From assembly GCA_021160725.1 (NCBI GenBank), contig JAGHCA010000033.1, positions 1 through 38,838 on the forward strand: a DNA stretch of 38,838 nucleotides, in the 5' to 3' direction. Origin of the DNA: Dehalococcoidia bacterium. Its GTDB lineage: Bacteria; Chloroflexota; Dehalococcoidia; GIF9; AB-539-J10. Shown here piece after piece: positions 27,231 through 38,570 of the stretch. Position numbers and translations under genes: made by a program. The notes beneath the pieces are model-generated. The model was not told where the DNA came from and made no database searches. It worked only from the letters and a program-made list of their open reading frames with translations. Position 1 is the first letter of the stretch, and every line of letters begins with the position of its first letter.

Positions 27231-27304
27231 CGGGGTGTAGCGCAGCCTGGTAGCGCACCTGAATGGGGTTCAGGTGGTCGGAGGTTCAAATCCTCTCACC
27301 CCGA
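27231..27304 (+). tRNA. tRNA-Pro (GGG)
   Basis: CGGGGTGTAGCGCAGCCTGGTAGCGCACCTGAATGGGGTTCAGGTGGTCGGAGGTTCAAATCCTCTCACCCCGA; anticodon loop ATGGGGT. Confidence 0.97.
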
Positions 27305-27400
27305 CTTTGAATAGGAAGTAAAGTGGTCAGACCACCTGAGTCGCCGAAAAAAATAAAGGTGGCTAAATATGGTCTAGACCACCTGAATCGGTAGAAAATG

Positions 27401-27413
27401 AGGCGGGTCCGCA
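27401..27413 (+). repeat. 13-bp inverted repeat, left copy
   Basis: AGGCGGGTCCGCA; exact reverse complement at 29509-29521. Confidence 0.8.
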
Positions 27414-27422
27414 AAATGAATA

Positions 27423-28418
27423 ATGGCCGCATCAATAAAAATGGAGGTGCCACCGGGGGTATCCCTCAAATCCTTGGTGGCGGGATTTGTGCTCACAAAA
27501 CGAACGGAGGGGAAAAGTCCAAGGACGGTAGAATACTACCAGGACAATCTTAGGCGTTTTCTCTGGTATGCTGGGAGGCAGGGTTGGTCTGATGACGTTA
27601 GGTTTCTGACGGATTGGCAAATCAGGGAATTTTTAGGTTATGTAGGTACTGAAACTCATCGGTGGGGGCTCGAAGGTAATGGTTCTGAAACTTCCCAGCG
27701 TAATGCTTCACATTCAACTGTTCGTCATTACTTTGTTGTTCTCTCCTGCTTCCTTAACTGGGCAGTGGGAGAAGGTTTTGTTGAAGAAAGCCCTATGGCC
27801 AGAATAAAGGTAGCGAAGTCAAAGCCAAAGGTCATAGTCCCATTCAGCAACGAGGAGATCAGCCGAATGGTAGCAGTTTGCGATTATGACTATGAGCACA
27901 ATGCTAAGTTTCTGGGCAGTCGCAATCGAGCAATAATCTTGGTCTTGCTCGACACAGGCATTCGACTTTCGGAGTTACTTGGAATGAAAGTTGGCGATAT
28001 AAATAACGAGACTGGGTATATCCGGGTGCTGGGCAAAGGTAGTAAGGAGCGAGTCGTGAGAATGGGGAAAGTAGCTCGGAAAGCACTGTGGCGCTATCTG
28101 ATGTACCGCAGTTGCAAGGATACGCAAGAACTCTGGTTGACTGAGGAAGGGAAACCTTTGCATAACGGTGGTGTCCATTCGCTAGTCAAACGGCTTAAAG
28201 AAAGAGCAGGCATAAATGGGAGCGGAAATGTTCATCGCTTCAGACATACCTTTGCCCTAAACTTTTTGAGGACGGACAAGAACGTTTTTAATTTGCAGTA
28301 TTTATTAGGACACTCCGACCTAGATATGGTAAGACGCTATACTGCAACCTTAGGGATGGAAGATGCCCTGAGAGCTCATGAGAAAGCAAGCCCGGCAGAC
28401 CTTTTGGAGTTAAAGTAA
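27423..28418 (+). CDS. tyrosine recombinase/integrase (full length)
   Basis: N-terminal core-binding domain; LLDTGIRLSELLGMKVGDI (Arg), HRFRHTFALNFLR (HxxR), LGHSDLDMVRRYTA (H...Y). Confidence 0.95.
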   Translation: MAASIKMEVPPGVSLKSLVAGFVLTKRTEGKSPRTVEYYQDNLRRFLWYAGRQGWSDDVRFLTDWQIREFLGYVGTETHRWGLEGNGSETSQRNASHSTVRHYFVVLSCFLNWAVGEGFVEESPMARIKVAKSKPKVIVPFSNEEISRMVAVCDYDYEHNAKFLGSRNRAIILVLLDTGIRLSELLGMKVGDINNETGYIRVLGKGSKERVVRMGKVARKALWRYLMYRSCKDTQELWLTEEGKPLHNGGVHSLVKRLKERAGINGSGNVHRFRHTFALNFLRTDKNVFNLQYLLGHSDLDMVRRYTATLGMEDALRAHEKASPADLLELK

Positions 28419-29197
28419 TGCCGAGACTAAGCGATCCCAGGATAACCAAAGGGCATGCTGCCAGTTTCTTGGTGCGCTTGTATTTACAGGAACCTGAGTT
28501 TCTTTCAGAGTTCCGACAGCTTCGTCAGAATCACGCTGAGTTATTGGCAAAAGTATTGGTGACACAGGTTGAGTTCCTTGTGAAGTGCAGAGAGGTTCTG
28601 AGTATTGAAAAATATCAGAAAATGGTCCGTGCCTTATATCAATTGCCCGTTACACGACGCAGTATTCCTACTCTACCCGAAAACTTAACTCGCCAACTCG
28701 AACAGATGAAGCAGATGTATGTGAAACTAGAGCCGTACTTTCATGATCTGGAGCAGTTAGCTTCTAGATGGAAGCTTAAGGCGTCTTGGGCAGGCCCTAT
28801 GTTGTATTTATACCATATTCATGATTGCCTTCGTGCAGCCGGTGTGCCCGATGCCATCGATGTACCTTTGGAACAGCTGGATCTGCTATATCCCTGGCCA
28901 CCGCCTGTTTCGCCTCTGGAAATCAAGGTGTCCGCCTGGGCTTTCGTTTTTTATGGTCGGAAACAAATACAGGTCGAGATCGCCAAGAAACTGAAAGATT
29001 ATGAGGCGAGGCTCAAGACAGTGGGTCTGAAAGAAAAACCGAGTGCTCTTGAGAATCACGCGAAATGGTGGTTTGAGCACTATGCCAAGGGGAAGCCTTA
29101 TCGAGAGCTGGCGCAACAATTCTCGGGGACTGAGGAAGAAACGATAAAGAGAAAGGTGTGGGAATTCTCCAAATTGGTTGGGATTAGAAATCGTTGA
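28418..29197 (+). CDS. recombinase-associated hypothetical protein with C-terminal HTH-like segment
   Basis: 259-aa ORF overlapping the integrase stop (TAATG); C-terminal YRELAQQFSGTEEETIKRKVWEFSKLVG. Confidence 0.75.
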   Translation: MPRLSDPRITKGHAASFLVRLYLQEPEFLSEFRQLRQNHAELLAKVLVTQVEFLVKCREVLSIEKYQKMVRALYQLPVTRRSIPTLPENLTRQLEQMKQMYVKLEPYFHDLEQLASRWKLKASWAGPMLYLYHIHDCLRAAGVPDAIDVPLEQLDLLYPWPPPVSPLEIKVSAWAFVFYGRKQIQVEIAKKLKDYEARLKTVGLKEKPSALENHAKWWFEHYAKGKPYRELAQQFSGTEEETIKRKVWEFSKLVGIRNR

Positions 29198-29285
29198 CGC
29201 ACTTTTGCTGATGCCGTAGAAATCCACAGACAGGAACATAGGGTAAGCTGTAGACTTGGTAAGAGTCTGCAGCTTGTCTTTTATT

Positions 29286-29492
29286 ATGAGCACAAGTGTT
29301 ACAGAAGCCGGGAGAAAGGGAGGTCTGACTGTTCTCAACAGGAGAGGACGCTCCTTTTATTCTGCGATCGGCAAGAAAGGCCAAGCGGTCATGCGACGGA
29401 AATACCCCACGATGGCTGCGAAATGGGGAAGACTTGGTGGCAGGCCTAGGAAGCCTACGCTGGATGAAATCATGGGGGAGAACGGCAAATAA
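29286..29492 (+). CDS. small basic KGG-like protein
   Basis: MSTSVTEAGRKGGLTVLNRRGRSFYSAIGKKGQAVMRRKYPTMAAKWGRLGGRPRKPTLDEIMG; GRKGG/GKKG/GRLGG repeats. Confidence 0.65.
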   Translation: MSTSVTEAGRKGGLTVLNRRGRSFYSAIGKKGQAVMRRKYPTMAAKWGRLGGRPRKPTLDEIMGENGK

Positions 29493-29508
29493 AATAACGA
29501 AGGAGGTA

Positions 29509-29521
29509 TGCGGACCCGCCT
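29509..29521 (-). repeat. 13-bp inverted repeat, right copy
   Basis: TGCGGACCCGCCT, exact reverse complement of 27401-27413. Confidence 0.8.
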
Positions 29522-29608
29522 GCGTTATGCCTTTCCCCCCCCTCCCATTATACAACGAAAAGACACATAGACTCTGTCTGGGAAGACCGAATATAGCTTA
29601 AGTCAATC

Positions 29609-30298
29609 GTGAAAACCTACTTGGAGCCTTCCGAAGTAATATTGTTGGAGGAGGTAGCAACGAACCTCCGTGACAAGCTGCTGATTCACCTTCTGTTCCA
29701 TCTCGGCTGCAGAATCAGTGAGGCTTTGGCTTTGACAATTGAGGACGTAGATTTCGACCATGGCATAGTTACCATTAAGTATCTGAAAGCCAGCCTGAAG
29801 CTATCCTGTACTCAATGTGGACAGAGACTCGGCAAAAGCCACACGTTCTGCCCCAAGTGCGGGAGCAGGATCACGGAGGCTCAAGCTGAGCAACTGGAGC
29901 ATCGTCGACAGAGGATGCTACCACTAGATGCCGATACTTTGGAATTGCTCAAAGAATACGTCAGGCGCGGTGGGCCACTTCTTCGAGATGGGAAGAAGCT
30001 GATTTTCGGCATCAATCGACACAGGGGCTGGCAGATTGTTAAAGGATGTGCTGAGAGAGCAGACCTGCCAAAGCTGATCAACCCTGAAACTGGGAGAATC
30101 CATAATGTAAGCCCTCACAAACTAAGGGACGCTTTTGCAGTACGTGCAGTTAAGATGGATGACTCGGGAGATGGGCTCAGGCTTCTGCAGCAACACTTAG
30201 GGCATGCCAGCTTTAACACTACGGCTAAGTATAGAAAAGTCTCAGGGGAAGAGCACAAAGAATGGTACCAAAGGTTATGGGAGAAGGAAACGGCTTGA
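29609..30298 (+). CDS. tyrosine recombinase, catalytic domain only, with inserted Cys4 zinc ribbon
   Basis: LGCRISEALALTIEDVDF (Arg I), CTQCGQRLGKSHTFCPKCG insertion, PHKLRDAFAV (HxxR), HLGHASFNTTAKYRKV (H...Y). Confidence 0.88.
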   Translation: MKTYLEPSEVILLEEVATNLRDKLLIHLLFHLGCRISEALALTIEDVDFDHGIVTIKYLKASLKLSCTQCGQRLGKSHTFCPKCGSRITEAQAEQLEHRRQRMLPLDADTLELLKEYVRRGGPLLRDGKKLIFGINRHRGWQIVKGCAERADLPKLINPETGRIHNVSPHKLRDAFAVRAVKMDDSGDGLRLLQQHLGHASFNTTAKYRKVSGEEHKEWYQRLWEKETA

Positions 30299-30328
30299 CT
30301 ATCTTGCATCAGCTAAAGGAGATAGGCA

Positions 30329-30835
30329 GTGGTTGAACCACTAAGGCCAGCTAGAGGCGGATTTCTTCGCCCCTTTGGCTGCGGTTGCTTTATCAGGGAA
30401 TTTCTTCTAGGGAACGGCCCGAATGGGTCGCCGTTAATTGACCCGGAGGTTGGAGCCCCTCAAGCAGATGTTTTTTATTTCTACAAAAGAGCGTCGATGC
30501 GGGCTACAGCGGTGGATCAGGCGACGAGAATGGAGGAAAGGCGGGCCCGGCGAGAAAAGCGTTCCATAGAACCCGCTAACATCGAGAGGCTGACCAAGCA
30601 ATATCTGTCGAGAATGCCATATAAATCTAGAGGGTGCCGGTTCCATAGTTTTGTCGTGTATTTCTCTAACCTTCAACGATTGCATTGGGTGGAACCTACC
30701 GGGCGAGAGGAGCCATCAAGTTTTCAAGATCATTATCCACCCGGTCCGCCACGCAGATATTTCCGGCTCACCGATGCTGGTAGAGCTGCTCCTGAGTCAG
30801 CCTGGGATAATCCCTATCGCGCTCTTTACGGCTAA
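30329..30835 (+). CDS. hypothetical accessory protein
   Basis: GTG start with AAAGGAGATAG upstream; coherent 168-aa product. Confidence 0.6.
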   Translation: MVEPLRPARGGFLRPFGCGCFIREFLLGNGPNGSPLIDPEVGAPQADVFYFYKRASMRATAVDQATRMEERRARREKRSIEPANIERLTKQYLSRMPYKSRGCRFHSFVVYFSNLQRLHWVEPTGREEPSSFQDHYPPGPPRRYFRLTDAGRAAPESAWDNPYRALYG

Positions 30836-30853
30836 TGTCCAGCTGACTGGACA
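30836..30853. promoter_or_regulatory. 7-bp perfect dyad
   Basis: TGTCCAG-CTGA-CTGGACA immediately after the 30329 ORF stop; no T-run follows. Confidence 0.45.
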
Positions 30854-30915
30854 TAAAGCCGATAACATTTGGTTTTTATTCATGAAATCTAGGAGAAATC
30901 AGAGAAGGGTCCCTT

Positions 30916-30988
30916 GTTCAAGAGATGTTCAAATGGCGTTCAAAATACTGTTCAAATGCTGGTTACATCATTCAAATGTGGTTCAAAT
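30916..30988 (+). repeat. helically phased iteron-like array of GTTCAAAT
   Basis: Copies start at 30916, 30927, 30938, 30950, 30970, 30981 (intervals 11, 11, 12, 20, 11 bp), directly upstream of the HTH/coiled-coil gene. Confidence 0.8.
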
Positions 30989-31035
30989 TTCCATGATTTA
31001 TCAATACGAAAATCACGTTTAAAAGGAGGCTAAAG

Positions 31036-31554
31036 ATGGAACGATTAACAGCAAAAAAGAAACTCTCAGTGGTCAAGCTTTATTTGTCCGGCCTATCCTA
31101 TGATGACATTGCGGCCAAGAGCGGTGTCAGCAAAGGGACAGTGGCCAATGTCGTCGCCGATTTGAAGGCAGGCATGATTCCCGAGGCAGCTGATGTTGGT
31201 GAATACATTGAGCTACTTCGCGAATTATCCTTCGACTTGAAACGGTCAGAGCTGAGTCCGGGGCAATGTGCTGTGGGGCTCATACTTCTCAAGCAGATCA
31301 GTGAATGTGGACTCGACCCGGCCGACATCAGTCGCTGGCCAATGATTCTCAAATCGGTGAGAAACGAAGATGATATTAACGAGTTTGTCCGACTGGTCTA
31401 CAGTATTCAGCAAGTCCAGCAAAGAAGCGGCTTGAGTCTTGAGGATCTTGACAACAAAGTCCAGGAACTTGAGAAAAAAGCAGCCGATCTCGAACCTCTA
31501 TCAGACAAACTAGAGGACAATAAAAAGCAGCTCGCCGAATTGACCAGGCAGTGA
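31036..31554 (+). CDS. HTH/coiled-coil protein, N-terminal part (ends at in-frame TGA)
   Basis: Starts ATG after AAAAGGAGG; MERLTAKKKLSVVKLYLSGLSYDDIAAKSGVSKGTVANVVADLKAG HTH; coiled coil begins before TGA 31552-31554. Confidence 0.8.
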   Translation: MERLTAKKKLSVVKLYLSGLSYDDIAAKSGVSKGTVANVVADLKAGMIPEAADVGEYIELLRELSFDLKRSELSPGQCAVGLILLKQISECGLDPADISRWPMILKSVRNEDDINEFVRLVYSIQQVQQRSGLSLEDLDNKVQELEKKAADLEPLSDKLEDNKKQLAELTRQ

Positions 31555-32397
31555 GAGGAACTTGCCAGCGCCGTAGCCCTTCTTGAGCAGAAAAATGAAT
31601 TGCTGAGCCCCCAGATCAAGGACCTGGAAAAGCGCGAACAGACCCTATCACACCGTATTGCTGATATGGAGCCGAAGGCCAAGAAAGCGGAGGCAACTCT
31701 CTCTACCTTGAAGGGCGAGATGCAAAAGCTTGAAGATATAGGGTTCACCCTTAAGGAATTGGCTGAGTTCAACAAGAAGTTACAAGCGATTGCGCAGCAT
31801 CACTCTATCAAACCCTCCGAACTCAGGAGTCGCTTACTACATGAGCTTGAGACCCTGGACAAAGAGCTGGCACTCGAAACCTTAATCCAGAGCCGGCAGC
31901 AAGAGTTAGATAAGGTTGAGCAAGCTATCGCTAGGGGTAAAAATGAGATAGAGAGTACCAGGGCAGTTGTTGACAGCCTCAAACAAGAGAAAGGGAATCT
32001 GGAGGATAGTATCAAGGAAACGAGAGAAAAAGTAGGCCAGGAAATCGCCAAAATCATCCCCCTTGCTCAGGATACCATCGGTAAACTGAGAGAGGAACTA
32101 CAGCACGGCAACGACGAAGCTCTGGCCGAGATACAACGGCTCAAGGACGAAGCTGTGGATGTAGGCAGAGAGGTCGGCCGGTATGAAGGAATTCTCCAGG
32201 TTAACGAATGGCTCAACGAGTTAATGGCCCTGGTGCGAGGTGAAGAGGAGATTGAAGGCAAACGGGTCAGGATTATTGTCTTGTCGGTCGTGCGGGCTCT
32301 TCATATCTGGTTGAAGCGGCAGCACTACCTGTCCTACACAATTCTACCGGTTACAGTCGATAACCTAATCAGCGAGCTGGAACAATGGAAAATATGA
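31555..32397 (+). CDS. continuation of the same coiled-coil protein after the in-frame TGA
   Basis: Same frame as 31036 ORF; EELASAVALLEQKNELLSPQIKDLEKREQTLSHRI... continues without another stop to 32397. The ORF track starts it at TTG 31600. Confidence 0.7.
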   Translation, partial: EELASAVALLEQKNELLSPQIKDLEKREQTLSHRIADMEPKAKKAEATLSTLKGEMQKLEDIGFTLKELAEFNKKLQAIAQHHSIKPSELRSRLLHELETLDKELALETLIQSRQQELDKVEQAIARGKNEIESTRAVVDSLKQEKGNLEDSIKETREKVGQEIAKIIPLAQDTIGKLREELQHGNDEALAEIQRLKDEAVDVGREVGRYEGILQVNEWLNELMALVRGEEEIEGKRVRIIVLSVVRALHIWLKRQHYLSYTILPVTVDNLISELEQWKI

Positions 32398-33023
32398 AAT
32401 CATTTCACGACCATTTGGAAAATTTACAGTCTCTAGCGAAGAAGCTAACTGAAACAGAGCTTGCCCTGAATGCACTGTTTGCCGAAGAGGAAATCCGGCT
32501 GGAGTGCGAAGATGAAGCATCAAGTCTGAAAGCACTGTATCGCACTATTGCGGATCAACTGGACCGAACGAAATACAGCGAGAGTTGCGCATGCTACGGG
32601 GATACTAAAGCCAATCTGGATTTCTCAATCACCGGACTCGCTGTAAAAATCATTGTAGCAACAACAAAGAACCAGCGGGCGTGGAACTTTGTGAATAACA
32701 TTTTTGACACGGAAGGCCATAAGAAGCCTTTCGGTAAGGTCATGGTTCGTGTCGGCCCCAAGGGCCTGCCTGATGATGCTACAGTTATCTCTATATCTCA
32801 GTCAGCGCGTGAATCAAATCGGTCAGAGCCTGAGATTATGAATAAACTGCAAGAAGATGGCTATCTCCTTTTTAGCCAAGAGGCATTCTCTACCCTGGTT
32901 GACAGGCTGGTCGGTGACGTTCGGGAAGGACGGCTGAGTTTGCCCATATCCAGGGACAAACTGGTCGAGATAGCAGGATTGAACAAGCCAAAGCCCAGAA
33001 TCAAGTTCATAGAAGCAGAGTGA
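32385..33023 (+). CDS. hypothetical accessory protein
   Basis: 212-aa ORF overlapping the previous gene by 13 bp; coherent globular sequence. Confidence 0.7.
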   Translation: MENMKSFHDHLENLQSLAKKLTETELALNALFAEEEIRLECEDEASSLKALYRTIADQLDRTKYSESCACYGDTKANLDFSITGLAVKIIVATTKNQRAWNFVNNIFDTEGHKKPFGKVMVRVGPKGLPDDATVISISQSARESNRSEPEIMNKLQEDGYLLFSQEAFSTLVDRLVGDVREGRLSLPISRDKLVEIAGLNKPKPRIKFIEAE

Positions 33024-33148
33024 TTGCCAGTCTGCTAGTAAGGCTAGCTCTCTCGGCCTTGCCCTTGGTGCTGCTTGCTGTCTCCCTGTGGCTCTCTCTG
33101 CCTGAGCAGTCCTGTTGCCCTCTGATAAGGCTAAATTTGCCATTTTAG
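33020..33148 (+). CDS. putative 42-aa single-TM microprotein
   Basis: GTG overlaps upstream stop (GTGA); MIASLLVRLALSALPLVLLAVSLWLSLPEQSCCPLIRLNLPF*, below the ORF-track cutoff. Confidence 0.4.
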   Translation: MIASLLVRLALSALPLVLLAVSLWLSLPEQSCCPLIRLNLPF

Positions 33149-33341
33149 CCAACTTGATTTATCCCAAGAAAATAAAGCTGCCCACCCAATATCGCCGAAA
33201 TATAGGTTCATTCCGAAATTCAACAAAATGTCCTTTTGTGTGATGATGGATACTGGATAATCGCACATTAACAATTGAATATAAGGTAAGCCTAGCCTGA
33301 ACGCTTGCTCACTTTGGGCAAATAAACGCAAAGGGGGCAAG

Positions 33342-34070
33342 ATGGAAGGATATTGTAGTAATTGCCATAAGGTGTGGACATTAGAAACACGGCAAGGCAT
33401 TTGCCAGTGGTGCTCACGTGAGGCATCTTGCCTCACTACCTTGACAAAGCCTCGCCAGCTAAAGTCTAGCCGAAGCCGAAGGCGAAAGCAAGTTGACAAT
33501 GGTAATAATGGCTATGACCAGCTACCAGAGCCATATTTAACCTATTACAAAGTAGCTTTGCGGTTCGCTCGCAAGGCACTAATAGACGACACGCAAGACC
33601 TTCTACACGACATCATTGAAGGGCTTGCTAGAGTAGCAGAGCATAAAACGCTCAGCGAAGCTGCAATGTATCGGCTTGCCGAGCATATTAAAGACCATTA
33701 CTGGTATAGACACTACGCATACCATAATGGGCTAGATTGCCAGCATTGTAGCAAAGCACAGCGGGCGAAGTGTAGAGCAAATTGGGCTTATTCCGATTGC
33801 CCTAGGGCTATCACCTTGGAAAGCATAAACCAGACTATCATAGACAGCGAAGGCAATATCACCGAGCTTGCCGAGCTGATAGCCGATGACAAGGCGCTCG
33901 ATTTAGCAGAGTGGCTAGACGCCAAGACCTTTCTAATCGGCGCACCAATTAGGTTAAAACAGATAGCCAGAAAGCTATACAAGGGAGAGGCGTTAACGTA
34001 TCCAGAACGCAACTACTTGTCAAGGCTAAGAAAAAAGCGGCAACTAGCTCTAACAAGCGATACATTTTAG
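33342..34070 (+). CDS. zinc-finger-containing sigma-factor-like protein
   Basis: CSNCHK...CQWC N-terminal zinc ribbon; FARKALIDDTQDLLHDIIEGLARVAEH (region 2-like); GNITELAELIADDKALD linker style of sigma factors; C-terminal HTH-like segment; internal CQHCSKAQRAKC. Confidence 0.6.
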   Translation: MEGYCSNCHKVWTLETRQGICQWCSREASCLTTLTKPRQLKSSRSRRRKQVDNGNNGYDQLPEPYLTYYKVALRFARKALIDDTQDLLHDIIEGLARVAEHKTLSEAAMYRLAEHIKDHYWYRHYAYHNGLDCQHCSKAQRAKCRANWAYSDCPRAITLESINQTIIDSEGNITELAELIADDKALDLAEWLDAKTFLIGAPIRLKQIARKLYKGEALTYPERNYLSRLRKKRQLALTSDTF

Positions 34071-34147
34071 CCAATTTCGGACTTATATATAGTGGAAGCA
34101 TTGTATAGGCTAGCGAGGTTCAGCTATGCGAGGCTTACTACTAGGCG

Positions 34148-35329
34148 ATGCCGATGGACTTTGCCCAGCTATCGGATAGCCAAAGGGGGTGTTCTAAAAT
34201 AGAACAATTGAATATCGTGGGCAAGCGTTCAGGCGATGGCTTCGTATCTCACAAGGCTACACTGGTAAACGCCCTGTCCAGGGTGATGGCTGAAAGGCTG
34301 TTACTGCTGGACTTCACTATTGGGCGTAAAGGCTTCGCAGGATACATTAAAGCTCTTAGCGGAAGCAATATCGTTAAGATAGTGCCTTCCACTAACGGAA
34401 GTGCCAGCGGGGAGCGGGCTTCTGATAAAAGGCTAAAGGTAGTCTGCGGAGCTAATACCAGTTACCTTGAGGACACAGCCTGGGTTGGCGATAAGACGCC
34501 AATGACCTTCGCTGAGGTTAGGATAAGCCCTAATAACACTGTCAAGCCTAACATCGGAAGCATAGAGCTAGCAGAAGCGCTCAATAGAGTGCTGCCCTTC
34601 ACTAGCAAAGACGACGCCAGACCAGTTCTGCAATGCGTCAAGTTTATAGCTGGGGAAGGTAAATTGAAGCTAGTTGGTGCTGATGGGTTCAGGCTAGCAG
34701 AGGTTACTATGGACTTTGACGAGGACATCGAGGGGCAAGTCCTAATCAATCGTGATGAGTTGAAAGGCATCGTTGGCGCACTTCGCAAGGCAAAGCGTGT
34801 TCGGCTAGGCTTTGAGGCAAGTGGTGATACTCTGGATGGTATGAGCCTTATCATTGACACTGAGGCAATACGCTATAAGTGGCGTGGTGCTGAGGGGCAG
34901 TTTCCCGATTATGAGAAGGTTATACCAACGGAGTTCAGCACCTTCGCACACCTTGACACCCTGGAGCTTCTCAAGGCAGTTGGCGCACTCAAAGCCCTTT
35001 CAGACAAGCCCAAAGAAAATCCGCTGGACTTGACCATTGGCGAAGGCAAGATAATTATCGCCAATCCCGATGATAAGGGCGAAGCCATAATCACAGCCGA
35101 CACCGATGGCGAAGGTTCTGTCAGGATGGACGGTGGTTATCTTGCCGATGTGCTAAAGGCTTGCGGTGGTATGGTGGACTTTAAGCTCGTTAATGCCTAC
35201 TCGCCGATGCTCTTTACTACCGATGGTTATCAAGTGGTAGTAATGCCGATGGTGACCAGCAAGGCAGAGGCAGAGCAGAAGGAAGCCACAGCCCAAGCCC
35301 AAACCGAGCCAGAAGTAGAGCCAATTTAG
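34148..35329 (+). CDS. DNA polymerase III beta (sliding clamp)-like protein, shortened
   Basis: ARPVLQCVKFIAGEGKLKLVGADGFRLA, VLINRDELKGIVGAL, YKWRGAEGQFPDYEKVIPTEF, MLFTTDGYQVVVMPM. Confidence 0.82.
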   Translation: MPMDFAQLSDSQRGCSKIEQLNIVGKRSGDGFVSHKATLVNALSRVMAERLLLLDFTIGRKGFAGYIKALSGSNIVKIVPSTNGSASGERASDKRLKVVCGANTSYLEDTAWVGDKTPMTFAEVRISPNNTVKPNIGSIELAEALNRVLPFTSKDDARPVLQCVKFIAGEGKLKLVGADGFRLAEVTMDFDEDIEGQVLINRDELKGIVGALRKAKRVRLGFEASGDTLDGMSLIIDTEAIRYKWRGAEGQFPDYEKVIPTEFSTFAHLDTLELLKAVGALKALSDKPKENPLDLTIGEGKIIIANPDDKGEAIITADTDGEGSVRMDGGYLADVLKACGGMVDFKLVNAYSPMLFTTDGYQVVVMPMVTSKAEAEQKEATAQAQTEPEVEPI

Positions 35330-35432
35330 CCTAGCAAAGCGAAAGCGAAGCCAAAGCGCAGCCGTATCCGTAAAAAAGAACCAGTAGCCGTAGCATAGAA
35401 CGCTTGAACACAAAAACAACCACGCACAGGAA

Positions 35433-35456
35433 GGCGGCGGGGTAGCCGCCTTTTTG
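35433..35456 (+). terminator. Rho-independent terminator 1
   Basis: GGCGGC-GGGGTA-GCCGCC-TTTTTG. Confidence 0.85.
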
Positions 35457-35469
35457 TGCTTTTTTTGTA

Positions 35470-35510
35470 GGGGTATTCCTGCCCTGTGTGGCGTGGAATA
35501 CCCCTTTTTT
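35470..35510 (+). terminator. Rho-independent terminator 2 (tandem)
   Basis: GGGGTATTCC-(15 nt)-GGAATACCCC-TTTTTT. Confidence 0.88.
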
Positions 35511-35540
35511 GTGCGTGGCGAGGGCAAGAAAGGGGGAAAA

Positions 35541-35753
35541 GTGATTTGCGAGTTCTGTGGCAAAAACGCCCCTCGACTGATAATCCTTCGTGTTTACACA
35601 CGAGAAGGTATTCAGGTCTGTGAGGGGTGCTATAAGACGATAGACAGCCATCGCCACAAGCCTTACTCAAAGGTAATGGACAAACTAGCTCTAGTTGAAG
35701 CTGGCTATCAAGTTAATCGCAAGCTGGCAACGATGCCAAAAGGCAGAGGATAA
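35541..35753 (+). CDS. small zinc-ribbon protein
   Basis: GTG start after AGGGGGAAAA; MICEFCGKNAPRLIILRVYTREGIQVCEGCYKTIDSHRHKPYSK. Confidence 0.7.
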   Translation: MICEFCGKNAPRLIILRVYTREGIQVCEGCYKTIDSHRHKPYSKVMDKLALVEAGYQVNRKLATMPKGRG

Positions 35754-35777
35754 ATGTAGCCTGACTTGGGCAATCGG

Positions 35778-35814
35778 GATAGGAGTAATCTTGCCTGGAA
35801 AGGAGGTGATAACA
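35778..35814 (+). repeat. leader repeat copy 1
   Basis: GGATAGGAGTAATCTTGCCTGGAAAGGAGGTGATAACA before ATG 35815. Confidence 0.65.
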
Positions 35815-36066
35815 ATGTCAGTGCGTGCTTATAGGGTAATTAAGATAGAGCACGCTCAACCCAACACTTTCAACTTGTGGCACGATGATAAGCTCGTAGA
35901 GTTCCTTGATAAGGAATATGGCTTCTTTGAAGGACTCAATGAAAGTGGAGGCTTAACAGAAGTGCCTATTGAAGCACTTAAGCGTGCTCTGAAAGAAGCC
36001 TTGACGAAGGACATAGAAGCTTGCTGTAAGGAAGGCGAGGAGTACGTTCAATACTATTGCTTCTAA
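35815..36066 (+). CDS. small hypothetical accessory protein
   Basis: ATG after AAAGGAGGTGATAACA; MSVRAYRVIKIEHAQPNTFNLW... Confidence 0.75.
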   Translation: MSVRAYRVIKIEHAQPNTFNLWHDDKLVEFLDKEYGFFEGLNESGGLTEVPIEALKRALKEALTKDIEACCKEGEEYVQYYCF

Positions 36067-36084
36067 ATAAGTGTGCAGAGAAAC

Positions 36085-36120
36085 ATAGGGCTACTATGGC
36101 CCGGAAAGGAGGTGATATCT
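36085..36120 (+). repeat. leader repeat copy 2
   Basis: ATAGGGCTACTATGGCCCGGAAAGGAGGTGATATCT before ATG 36121. Confidence 0.75.
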
Positions 36121-36441
36121 ATGCCTATAAAATGGAGTGCTCTACAGGTGATGGAGGCAGCCGCTATGATTGAAAAACATATCAATGCGGCTGTCGAGCC
36201 TCTGGAGTGTGCCAGGGAAGTCGCCAAAGCAGCTTTGGAAATCCCACAGCTCCCTCAGTATGTTGACCGGCACTTTCGAGGGCTTATGGGGGAAATAGAC
36301 AGAGCAATTGGCGGCAGCCACTCTGAGCCAGTCGGTCGGTTAAAGGCCAGGCTACAGTCAATCCGAGACTCTGTGCCAAAAGATGCGCCAGAGGCAAAAG
36401 AAAAGAAAAGCAAATACGGTAAACAGCAGAGCCTGGTCTAA
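36121..36441 (+). CDS. small hypothetical accessory protein
   Basis: MPIKWSALQVMEAAAMIEKHINAAVEPLECAREVAKAALEIPQLP...; strong SD. Confidence 0.75.
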   Translation: MPIKWSALQVMEAAAMIEKHINAAVEPLECAREVAKAALEIPQLPQYVDRHFRGLMGEIDRAIGGSHSEPVGRLKARLQSIRDSVPKDAPEAKEKKSKYGKQQSLV

Positions 36442-36452
36442 GGTTGCCCTCT

Positions 36453-36495
36453 GGATAGGGCTACTATGCCTAAAATCTGCAAGAAAGGAGCACAA
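36453..36495 (+). repeat. leader repeat copy 3
   Basis: GGATAGGGCTACTATGCCTAAAATCTGCAAGAAAGGAGCACAA before ATG 36496. Confidence 0.7.
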
Positions 36496-36723
36496 ATGGC
36501 TGGAGTCAAGCGAAGGGATATCAGGTTAGAACCGCTCCAAGTCAAAGAGCAAACCTACGAGGAAATTAATAAGCTCTATAAATCGGGGACTACTGTCTCA
36601 ATCAAAGAGCATCGCAGTGGTTTTCCTGCTGTAACTGTGGACTGCGGTGAAATTCATATCCTTACCGATATTTTGAGCCTGGAAGCATGGTGGCACAAGA
36701 TGAGAAAAGCCGAGCAAACTTAG
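36496..36723 (+). CDS. small hypothetical accessory protein
   Basis: MAGVKRRDIRLEPLQVKEQTYEEINKLYKSGTTVSIKEHRSG...; SD AAAGGAG. Confidence 0.7.
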   Translation: MAGVKRRDIRLEPLQVKEQTYEEINKLYKSGTTVSIKEHRSGFPAVTVDCGEIHILTDILSLEAWWHKMRKAEQT

Positions 36724-36736
36724 AAAAACCCAGGCC

Positions 36737-36783
36737 GAATAGGGGAACTATTGGACAAAATCTAAAAGAAAGGAGGTGAACAA
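36737..36783 (+). repeat. leader repeat copy 4
   Basis: GAATAGGGGAACTATTGGACAAAATCTAAAAGAAAGGAGGTGAACAA before ATG 36784. Confidence 0.65.
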
Positions 36784-37260
36784 ATGTCCACCCAGCTTGG
36801 TATCTTCGAAGAAGCTGGGGTAGAGGTCACACAACCAGAGCCGAGCACAGCAGTCAGGCTAGGCACTCGAGAACGTCATGTTAACCTGGCCAAAAAGAGA
36901 CGTGAAGCCTTGAAAGAGTTTATGGATGTCCTCATCGAACTGGAAGGAAAGGATATCCATGTCGGGGCCTATGGCGGACACGGCTCTTACTACTGGGTAG
37001 AAGACCTGAAACTAGGCCGCATGACGGTAGAAAGTCCCATGTTTGGCGATAAGGAAGTGCCGAGCGTCATTGTGCTAAGGGGCACACGGGGATGCTCAGT
37101 GCGTATCTTCACCGACAGGGTTTTTGGCCTGCGACGCCAGGATTACTTCGGCTATACCCTGTGGCTGCTGGACTTCTGGAATGGCTTTGGAGAGTATCCG
37201 ATTGACTCCTACCGCCCGCCAGGCTGCCAGAGCCTGCACATTAAGCGATTTAACGACTAG
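36784..37260 (+). CDS. hypothetical accessory protein
   Basis: 158-aa ORF MSTQLGIFEEAGVEVTQPEPSTAVRLGTRERHVNLAKKRREALKEF... with strong SD. Confidence 0.78.
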   Translation: MSTQLGIFEEAGVEVTQPEPSTAVRLGTRERHVNLAKKRREALKEFMDVLIELEGKDIHVGAYGGHGSYYWVEDLKLGRMTVESPMFGDKEVPSVIVLRGTRGCSVRIFTDRVFGLRRQDYFGYTLWLLDFWNGFGEYPIDSYRPPGCQSLHIKRFND

Positions 37261-37280
37261 AGGGGCTGTACCCCTCATCC

Positions 37281-37316
37281 GATAGGGCTACTATTGCCTA
37301 AAAGGGAGGTGATAAT
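37281..37316 (+). repeat. leader repeat copy 5
   Basis: GATAGGGCTACTATTGCCTAAAAGGGAGGTGATAAT before CTG 37317. Confidence 0.75.
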
Positions 37317-37820
37317 CTGACAACTGAAGTTCAAATTGAGAAGGGCGTCTCCAACCTCGTTGGTGCTCTGACAGACCCCATTATTGTCTTTCCCGGGGGT
37401 TGGGGCGATACTCTTCCTGAATGGCTAAAAAATGCCATTACCATGGAGAGGTTAGTGATGAACATGAAGGCACTCAAGGGAGAGGAACTGACGGGGACAG
37501 ATGCCGAGGCCTGCGCCTATCTCTATACCGCTTGCCTCACTCAGCCAATAGATAGCAACTGGGCACAGATTTACCTTTACATCGCCAAACAGGTCTATAG
37601 TCGCCATCGCTCTAAGGAAAGCGGCGTCCAGTTTCACGAGGATATCCAGGTCAGGTCACTGAGCGACTTCCAGATGGCAGAGTTACGTCGGCTGAAAGAG
37701 TGGATTTACGAGAGGCGGACTCAGGCAAAGCAGGAAAGAGACAGAACTGAGAGGCAGAAGAAGCGAGAGGAAGAGGCAACAAAGAGGAGTATGGAGCGTC
37801 CAGCCTTATTCAAATTCTAA
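37317..37820 (+). CDS. hypothetical accessory protein, probable CTG start
   Basis: Open frame from CTG 37317: (M)TTEVQIEKGVSNLVGALTDPIIVFPGGWGDTLPEWLKNAITMERLVMNMKALKGEELTG..., joins ORF-track entry 37443..37820 in frame; in-frame TAA at 37299 excludes an earlier start. Confidence 0.65.
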   Translation: MTTEVQIEKGVSNLVGALTDPIIVFPGGWGDTLPEWLKNAITMERLVMNMKALKGEELTGTDAEACAYLYTACLTQPIDSNWAQIYLYIAKQVYSRHRSKESGVQFHEDIQVRSLSDFQMAELRRLKEWIYERRTQAKQERDRTERQKKREEEATKRSMERPALFKF

Positions 37821-37835
37821 TGTTCCTCAAATCAA

Positions 37836-37870
37836 ACAGGGTCGAGGAGCCAACCTCGACCCTGTTTTTT
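37836..37870 (+). terminator. Rho-independent terminator ending the small-ORF run
   Basis: ACAGGGTCGAGG-AGCCAA-CCTCGACCCTGT-TTTTT. Confidence 0.9.
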
Positions 37871-38025: not shown

Positions 38026-38055
38026 TTGACAAATGGGTTATGAATGTGCTAAAGT
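38026..38055 (+). promoter_or_regulatory. sigma70-type promoter with extended -10
   Basis: TTGACA (38026-38031), 18-nt spacer, TGC-TAAAGT (-10 at 38050-38055); predicted start near 38061-38063. Confidence 0.65.
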
Positions 38056-38060
38056 AAATA

Positions 38061-38206
38061 ATGCCCCGAGTAGCCAAGCTGGGACCTAGCAAACGAGTCA
38101 GGCCTGGTGGAAGCTGAAAAGTGTAGGCGAGAGCTAGCACAAGGTAAGTGGAAGCGAGGCCGGACAATAGCTGGGAGGAGAGGTAAGGTTGCTCGGGGCA
38201 TATTTT
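38061..38206 (+). ncRNA. candidate structured noncoding RNA, family not recognised
   Basis: 15-bp closing helix 38061-38075/38187-38201, internal helix 38097-38105/38157-38165, GNRA hairpin 38121-38140, TATTTTT tail, own promoter. Confidence 0.65.
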
Positions 38207-38429
38207 TGCCAACTTAGCGTCCCAGCCTCTTCTGAAATACGTAGATATTCGGCCTATTCAGCTTAGACTCCTAACCAAAATCTACCATCTGCGGCTTTGA
38301 CCTCAATCTGATTTTGGTTGCCATTATCATACTAGCTTTAAAGTTCAGGTGGTGGGTTTTAGTACTTTATGGCTATTGACACCGTGGCAGCAAATGGCCT
38401 ACTATCTGTCCCAAAAAGAGGAGGGGCAA

Positions 38430-38570
38430 ATGCAAGCATACTGTATGAAGTGCCGTGCCAAAAGGGAAATGAAGGATACTAGAAGGATAACCATGAAAAA
38501 TGGCAGGCCGGCAACTCGGGGCGTGTGCTCTGTGTGCGGAACCAAGATGTTCAAAATTGGCAAGAGTTAG
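38430..38570 (+). CDS. 46-aa zinc-ribbon protein (DUF5679-like)
   Basis: ATG 38430 after GAGGAGGGG; MQAYCMKCRAKREMKDTRRITMKNGRPATRGVCSVCGTKMFKIGKS. Confidence 0.8.
   Translation: MQAYCMKCRAKREMKDTRRITMKNGRPATRGVCSVCGTKMFKIGKS

Follow-up and report, generated by a model that had tools for sequence, protein, structure and literature searches.

A structured RNA gene of an apparently undescribed family in Dehalococcoidia, and its frequent association with an HPRT fusion gene

The window, that is, the whole 38,838-nucleotide stretch of Dehalococcoidia DNA analysed here, carries an integrative element followed by two small genes. The element starts at a tRNA-Pro gene (27231–27304), with recombinase genes at 27423 and 29609. 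The region from 27231 to 37870 behind this tRNA-Pro(GGG) encodes two tyrosine recombinases, a coiled-coil protein and a divergent DNA polymerase III beta clamp (34148–35329). Three related 39-nt direct repeats (35779–35817, 36085–36123 and 37282–37320), with a ribosome-binding site (GGAGGTGAT), precede small element genes. A terminator hairpin, GGTCGAGG..CCTCGACCCTGTTTTTT, maps to 37840–37870 and is found three times in contig C94 of genome G003 (L190, near 6168, 7890 and 11503). A direct repeat of the tRNA-Pro end was looked for in the window and not found, and the far attachment site is not in it. Beyond the element, or at its far edge, sit the RNA gene under study (38061–38207, forward strand) and, as a separate neighbour, an ORF for a DUF5679 zinc ribbon (38430–38570, forward strand; Pfam PF18930, E 8e-16) with its own promoter-like site at 38376.

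Direct reading and a promoter scan (score 10/12 with the TG) locate, on the forward strand at 38026–38055, the promoter proposed in the original prediction: a −35 element TTGACA (38026–38031), an 18-nt spacer and an extended −10, TGc-TAAAGT, with the TG at 38047–38048 and TAAAGT at 38050–38055. The fold of about 141 nt opens 5–7 nt past the −10 and is followed by a T-run. It is closed by helix P1, whose 5′ arm ATGCCCCGAGTAGCC (38061–38075) and 3′ arm GGTTGCTCGGGGCAT (38187–38201) form the 15-bp helix described earlier, with only the inner 13 bp conserved in homologs. The 3′ arm continues into ATTTTT, and the T-run at 38203–38207, likewise where it had been placed, resembles an intrinsic terminator by direct reading and by the T counts of homologs. 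A terminator scan did not report it, as only loops of 3–8 nt were allowed.

The minimum-energy fold of the RNA reaches −68.8 kcal/mol, versus −43.8 ± 3.57 in 200 dinucleotide shuffles (z = −7.0), none of which was as low as the native RNA. Inside P1, a purine internal loop comprises AA plus two pairs (GC) on its 5′ side (38076–38079; columns 14–17 of alignment A4) and GTAA on its 3′ side (38183–38186; columns 18–21). Fold and pair counts then define P2 (CCTAGC, 38085–38090, with GCTGGG, 38170–38175), P3 (GTCAGGCCT, 38097–38105, with AGGCCGGAC, 38157–38165) and an apical hairpin, GUGU-A-GGC-GAGA-GCU-A-GCAC (GTGTAGGC-GAGA-GCTAGCAC, 38121–38140). Both P3 and this hairpin had been anticipated, and both are present in the minimum-energy fold; the GNRA character of the hairpin loop is not conserved, since other members have AGTG, GGTG or GCTG in place of GAGA. 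Between P3 and the hairpin, module pairs in homologs define a core with a 5′ strand of GGAA, GCU and GAAAA (38109–38120) and a bulged-G-like 3′ strand of AAGGUA, AGU and GGAA (38141–38153). What had been called a self-complementary block is here redefined as GGAA (38109–38112) facing GGAA (38150–38153), where tandem G·A pairs are possible; beside it, GAAAA (38116–38120) faces AAGGUA (38141–38146), fitting the bulged-G motif.

The RNA belongs to no Rfam family tested, in agreement with the claim of novelty. Specifically, no match to it was found in the window at the gathering cut-off, and searching the RNA region by E-value returned two chance-level matches only, outside the RNA or antisense to it. 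No Rfam 15 family reached the gathering cut-off for the window copy or for the homologous loci scanned, and neither Rfam nor ARAGORN matched the window RNA to RNase P, tmRNA, SRP RNA or tRNA, the first three of which had already been judged absent by eye. The segment ACAAGGUA briefly resembles the 16S rRNA 3′ region, which we take to be a chance likeness. In the literature on Dehalococcoidia non-coding RNAs, covered to a limited extent for subscription journals, no description of the window RNA was found; the only related report located concerns an rdhA leader motif in Dehalococcoides (PMC11109978).

The search for homologs suggested in the original prediction returned about 100, with P1 pairs that covary; 86 distinct ones, of 76–163 nt, and further divergent ones occur in Dehalococcoidia, including SAR202. 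When 60 relatives were searched at the DNA level, copies turned up in most of the genus and in several members of the family, often several per genome. Two groups emerge: group A RNAs (about 138 nt) occur as several paralogs per genome at scattered intergenic sites, and group B RNAs (about 155 nt) are usually single and syntenic. The genome of the window has four copies: three of group A, on contigs C99 (the window copy), C75 and C49, and one of group B, on C8. The window copy counts among the three extra paralogs of its genome and lies far from hpt. A covariance model built on group A (R1) reached distant members in other Dehalococcoidia families.

At the level of the class, a pattern that fixed only TTGACA and the P1 5′ arm, with a spacer of 27–33 nt, matched in 29 of 254 genomes, compared with none for the reversed control. 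A stricter pattern run on all GTDB r220 genomes matched 55 stretches; one belongs to a Candidatus Stahlbacteria MAG, and the others carry the labels Chloroflexota/Chloroflexi, Dehalococcoidia or SAR202. The RNA at the Stahlbacteria locus (L144) is typical of group A, and the contig is probably a misbinned Dehalococcoidia one. The same kind of pattern had no match in 174 Chloroflexota genomes from outside Dehalococcoidia (phylum sample of 201). At L034 (G015:C20), a large inverted duplication, possibly an assembly artefact, has one RNA at each end (14498 and 32760), and the SAR202 locus L135 (4073–4545) has two tandem RNA copies about 370 bp apart, adjoining hpt.

The queries contained the −35 and the P1 5′ arm only, yet the −10, the 3′ arm and the T-run reappear in the matches. 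In 55 of 58 scorable matches the 3′ arm forms 12 or more of the 13 pairs, and a T-run usually comes next; 17 of about 2900 shuffles pair to that extent. Of 85 homologs, 84 have a −10 element at 17 or 18 nt from the −35, 72 carry the TG extension and 77 have the −10 ending 6 or 7 nt before P1; on average, 7.7 T fall within the 12 nt after P1 (86 homologs).

Covariation supports the closing helix. In group A the structure is paired in 97.0% of cells, compared with 46% or less in slid registers. Among 73 distinct stalk sequences, eight pairs changed on both sides, with 53 double-changed cells against 17.9 ± 8.4 in shuffles, in a test biased toward structure because the 3′ arms were chosen by pairing. 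In a broader set of 40 sequences, including hpt-linked ones, double changes affect 10 of the 13 P1 pairs (58 cells); the pairing score is 0.475 against 0.325 ± 0.015 in shuffles that leave sequence kinship in place (none of 500 as high) and at most 0.19 in slid registers. Examples are pair 1 (G-C 33, C-G 5), pair 2 (C-G 18, U-A 9), pair 6 (G-C 22, A-U 16) and pair 7 (A-U 34, G-C 6).

The core is purine-rich (G 39%, A 28%) with conserved non-canonical motifs, and groups A and B share the pattern (GCY/RGY)(GAAAR/AAGGUA)(GYGC/GCRC). All seven flanking pairs are standard in 26 of 36 scorable homologs, and they vary between U-A and C-G and between G-C and A-U. In group A, the GGAA/GGAA loop beside the module permits tandem G·A pairs. 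The inner part of the RNA varies in length, and many members carry the bulged-G/tandem-G·A module, which in five of them is circularly permuted, the AAGGUA strand coming first and an RGY/RCY stem being capped by a tetraloop. Module hairpins of the form GUA-3bp-4nt-3bp-GAR were counted in 34 of 86 members, compared with 0.5 ± 0.7 in shuffles, and their stems range from RGY/RCY to CCG/CGG with pairing kept. These hairpins set GUA against GAA next to a short helix whose sequence varies, a signature of the bulged-G (sarcin-ricin, loop E) motif, whose geometry the RNA would be predicted to adopt.

In conclusion, homologs, covariation, a promoter and a terminator at fixed distances and the lack of an Rfam match strongly support a discrete structured RNA gene: almost certainly, 38061–38207 encodes a non-coding RNA with a defined fold, whose family is apparently undescribed and, as far as searched, restricted to Dehalococcoidia. 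The newness apparently lies in the RNA family; the mechanism is not claimed as new.

By clustering the genes within 3 kb of the RNAs, we found one dominant family, near 36 of them, whose product ends in HPRT and whose gene is almost always convergent to the RNA. The protein consists of an N-terminal GAF domain, a middle part (TPDFYLPELDLYIELT..K) and a hypoxanthine phosphoribosyltransferase (TIGR01203, 204 bits). Pfam and NCBIfam assign no domain to the middle part, which looks PD-(D/E)XK-like in its sequence. Such fusions (L136:3231–4682, L042:3227–4672, L128:2279–3772 and others) occur in many Dehalococcoidia families, and the combination of GAF, middle domain and HPRT may be undescribed. 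Structure prediction of the fusion reached a pLDDT of 45, too poor for use.

Starting from the protein, among loci with downstream DNA available, and judging RNA presence by P1, promoter and T-run tests plus inspection, we found the RNA at 45 of 63 fusion-type loci (38 convergent, 7 tandem downstream) and at none of seven plain hpt loci; some of the 63 were matched over the middle and HPRT parts only. The reverse-complement control was not clean, as tandem RNAs lit it up, and only two per-locus shuffles scored 36 or more. The hpt-linked RNA occurs in both orientations, with its own promoter. In SAR202 members the neighbour is a plain HPRT gene; a fusion is therefore not needed, and the association in this group concerns hpt at large.

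In three single-contig genomes, of 1,521,287, 1,469,720 and 1,362,151 bp, a 183-nt member is preceded by a tRNA gene (Arg, judged by eye) and faces the fusion gene convergently; a compensatory change from AAG/CTT to AGG/CCT is seen among the three. Model R1 scores these members weakly (E about 1–3), and they were assigned from their location, from P1 and the module, and from promoter-like sites. The 1,469,720-bp genome is, by its size, presumably that of D. mccartyi 195; its member occupies 689,380–689,562 on the plus strand (G152:C1). The likely ancestral RNA gene of the family sits by the 3′ end of such a GAF/middle-domain/HPRT fusion.

These observations suggest the following scenario. A sigma-70-type promoter would start transcription, which would be constitutive, at the 13-bp closing helix, and the P1 3′ arm with the U-run would end it. 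We tentatively propose that the product is a trans-acting structural RNA that would use its stalk and its bulged-G module to bind a protein, and would not act by pairing with mRNA: action in trans is suggested by the paralogs distant from hpt, and protein binding by the conserved bases in non-canonical modules. PyrR is a phosphoribosyltransferase that binds RNA. This analogy and the gene neighbourhood make the HPRT fusion the favoured partner, through which the RNA would be coupled to purine salvage or to a purine signal; extra copies would raise dosage or supply variants. HPRT and PyrR share general phosphoribosyltransferase similarity only, and we know of no RNA binding by HPRT. Paralogs such as the window copy, far from hpt, and the plain HPRT neighbour in SAR202 also count against this reading, and the linkage to hpt may reflect inherited gene order devoid of functional meaning. 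An undescribed RNA family with an HPRT-linked, protein-binding role is the best explanation of the data as a whole, and we hold it as a serious candidate that falls somewhat short of probable. More doubtful is a class-wide RNA–protein complex in which the rod-shaped RNA with sarcin-ricin-like modules would be the dedicated partner or effector of the GAF-HPRT fusion, coupling purine salvage or signalling to gene expression, an undescribed kind of phosphoribosyltransferase–RNA system.

The main rival, which we consider unlikely, is a Dehalococcoidia analogue of 6S RNA, an abundant rod binding the RNA polymerase holoenzyme by open-promoter mimicry. The long closing helix, the strong constitutive-type promoter and the housekeeping copy that most genomes of the order carry are compatible with it. 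RF00013 matched nothing in 60 relatives or in a set of six genomes, Dehalococcoides-sized ones included, where controls gave their signal; the 6S gene of the class is therefore unaccounted for, a point in favour of such a role. The same null result nevertheless means that the RNA itself has no 6S covariance match. Moreover, it does not fold with a large central bubble (group A shows only small purine loops, and group B folds are less certain), its core is built on conserved purine-rich, non-canonical motifs, and some members measure only 76–110 nt.

Equally improbable in our judgement is a base-pairing sRNA that would act in trans on mRNAs, perhaps that of hpt. Its size, its discrete promoter–terminator unit, its several paralogs and the close 3′–3′ arrangement with hpt would suit such a regulator. 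However, the conserved bases fall in helices and non-canonical loops, with terminal loops and lengths that vary, and in the seven tandem loci the RNA is not antisense to hpt.

That the RNA and the DUF5679 zinc ribbon make up a two-gene module, in which the protein would partner the RNA, appears very unlikely. The ORF does lie within about 0.4 kb of the RNA at six loci (the window, L007, L013, L037, L038 and L039), on the same strand in five, and DUF5679 was found in all 20 relatives tested. It is, however, a multi-copy gene throughout the order. The 20 genomes hold 1–9 copies, mostly without the RNA and often preceded by some 60 bp of conserved DNA, which gives the impression of a family free to duplicate or move; near most RNA copies DUF5679 is lacking, and the window ORF has its own promoter-like site. 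In addition, contig C94 of G003 has a counterpart of the DUF5679 gene (91% DNA identity) and of the terminator upstream (81%), and the RNA is absent from it.

The original prediction had placed the RNA in the integrative element, and a function in packaging, maintenance or anti-host action would be compatible with its position 10.8 kb from tRNA-Pro, with recombinase genes between. We regard this as highly improbable. The family is chromosomal and class-wide, its likely ancestral locus adjoins the hpt fusion, distant blastn searches of phages and plasmids found no copy, and the core pattern had no match in IMG/VR. Furthermore, contig C16 of G008 shows the same tRNA-Pro, a remnant of the same integrase and then an orthologous RNA with the DUF5679 gene, the element body being missing, so the window copy is independent of that body; it is present in some relatives and absent in others. 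A cis-acting leader or riboswitch was rejected, given the RNA's own promoter and T-run and a conserved neighbour that lies 3′–3′ or upstream.

The preferred reading, an HPRT-linked RNA, would give a class without a recognised 6S RNA an RNA family tied to one protein gene. The family, apparently undescribed, belongs to a class of environmental importance that is difficult to work with, among whose members are organohalide-respiring Dehalococcoides and deep-ocean SAR202, and the orthologous gene in the 1,469,720-bp genome makes the RNA checkable in a cultured species.

Compared with known systems, the family recalls 6S RNA (RF00013) in its rod-like shape, long terminal helix, sigma-70-type promoter and housekeeping character, and departs from it in the features given above and in its size range of 76–163 nt. 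Two protein-bound RNA types were considered and rejected. Like the Ro-associated Y RNAs, it has a conserved stalk and a variable upper part, but no TROVE/Ro protein was found in 25 relatives (the control gave a signal in 1 of 14 genomes) and Rfam gave no match. Like sponge RNAs of the CsrB/RsmZ type, it is a promoter–terminator sRNA with many GGA triplets, but CsrA was found in none of 25 relatives (the control gave a signal in 3 genomes). The sarcin-ricin/loop E modules of rRNA share the AGUA or GGUA opposite GAA by a short stem, often with a GNRA-type cap; here the module, a three-dimensional motif proposed from base order alone, occurs in one or two copies in a free small RNA and is in some members circularly permuted. 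Finally, PyrR with its mRNA binding loops offers the parallel of a phosphoribosyltransferase associated with purine-rich structured RNA. PyrR binds the leaders of pyr operons, whereas in Dehalococcoidia the association, known from gene neighbourhood, involves an RNA with its own promoter, 3′ of the gene.
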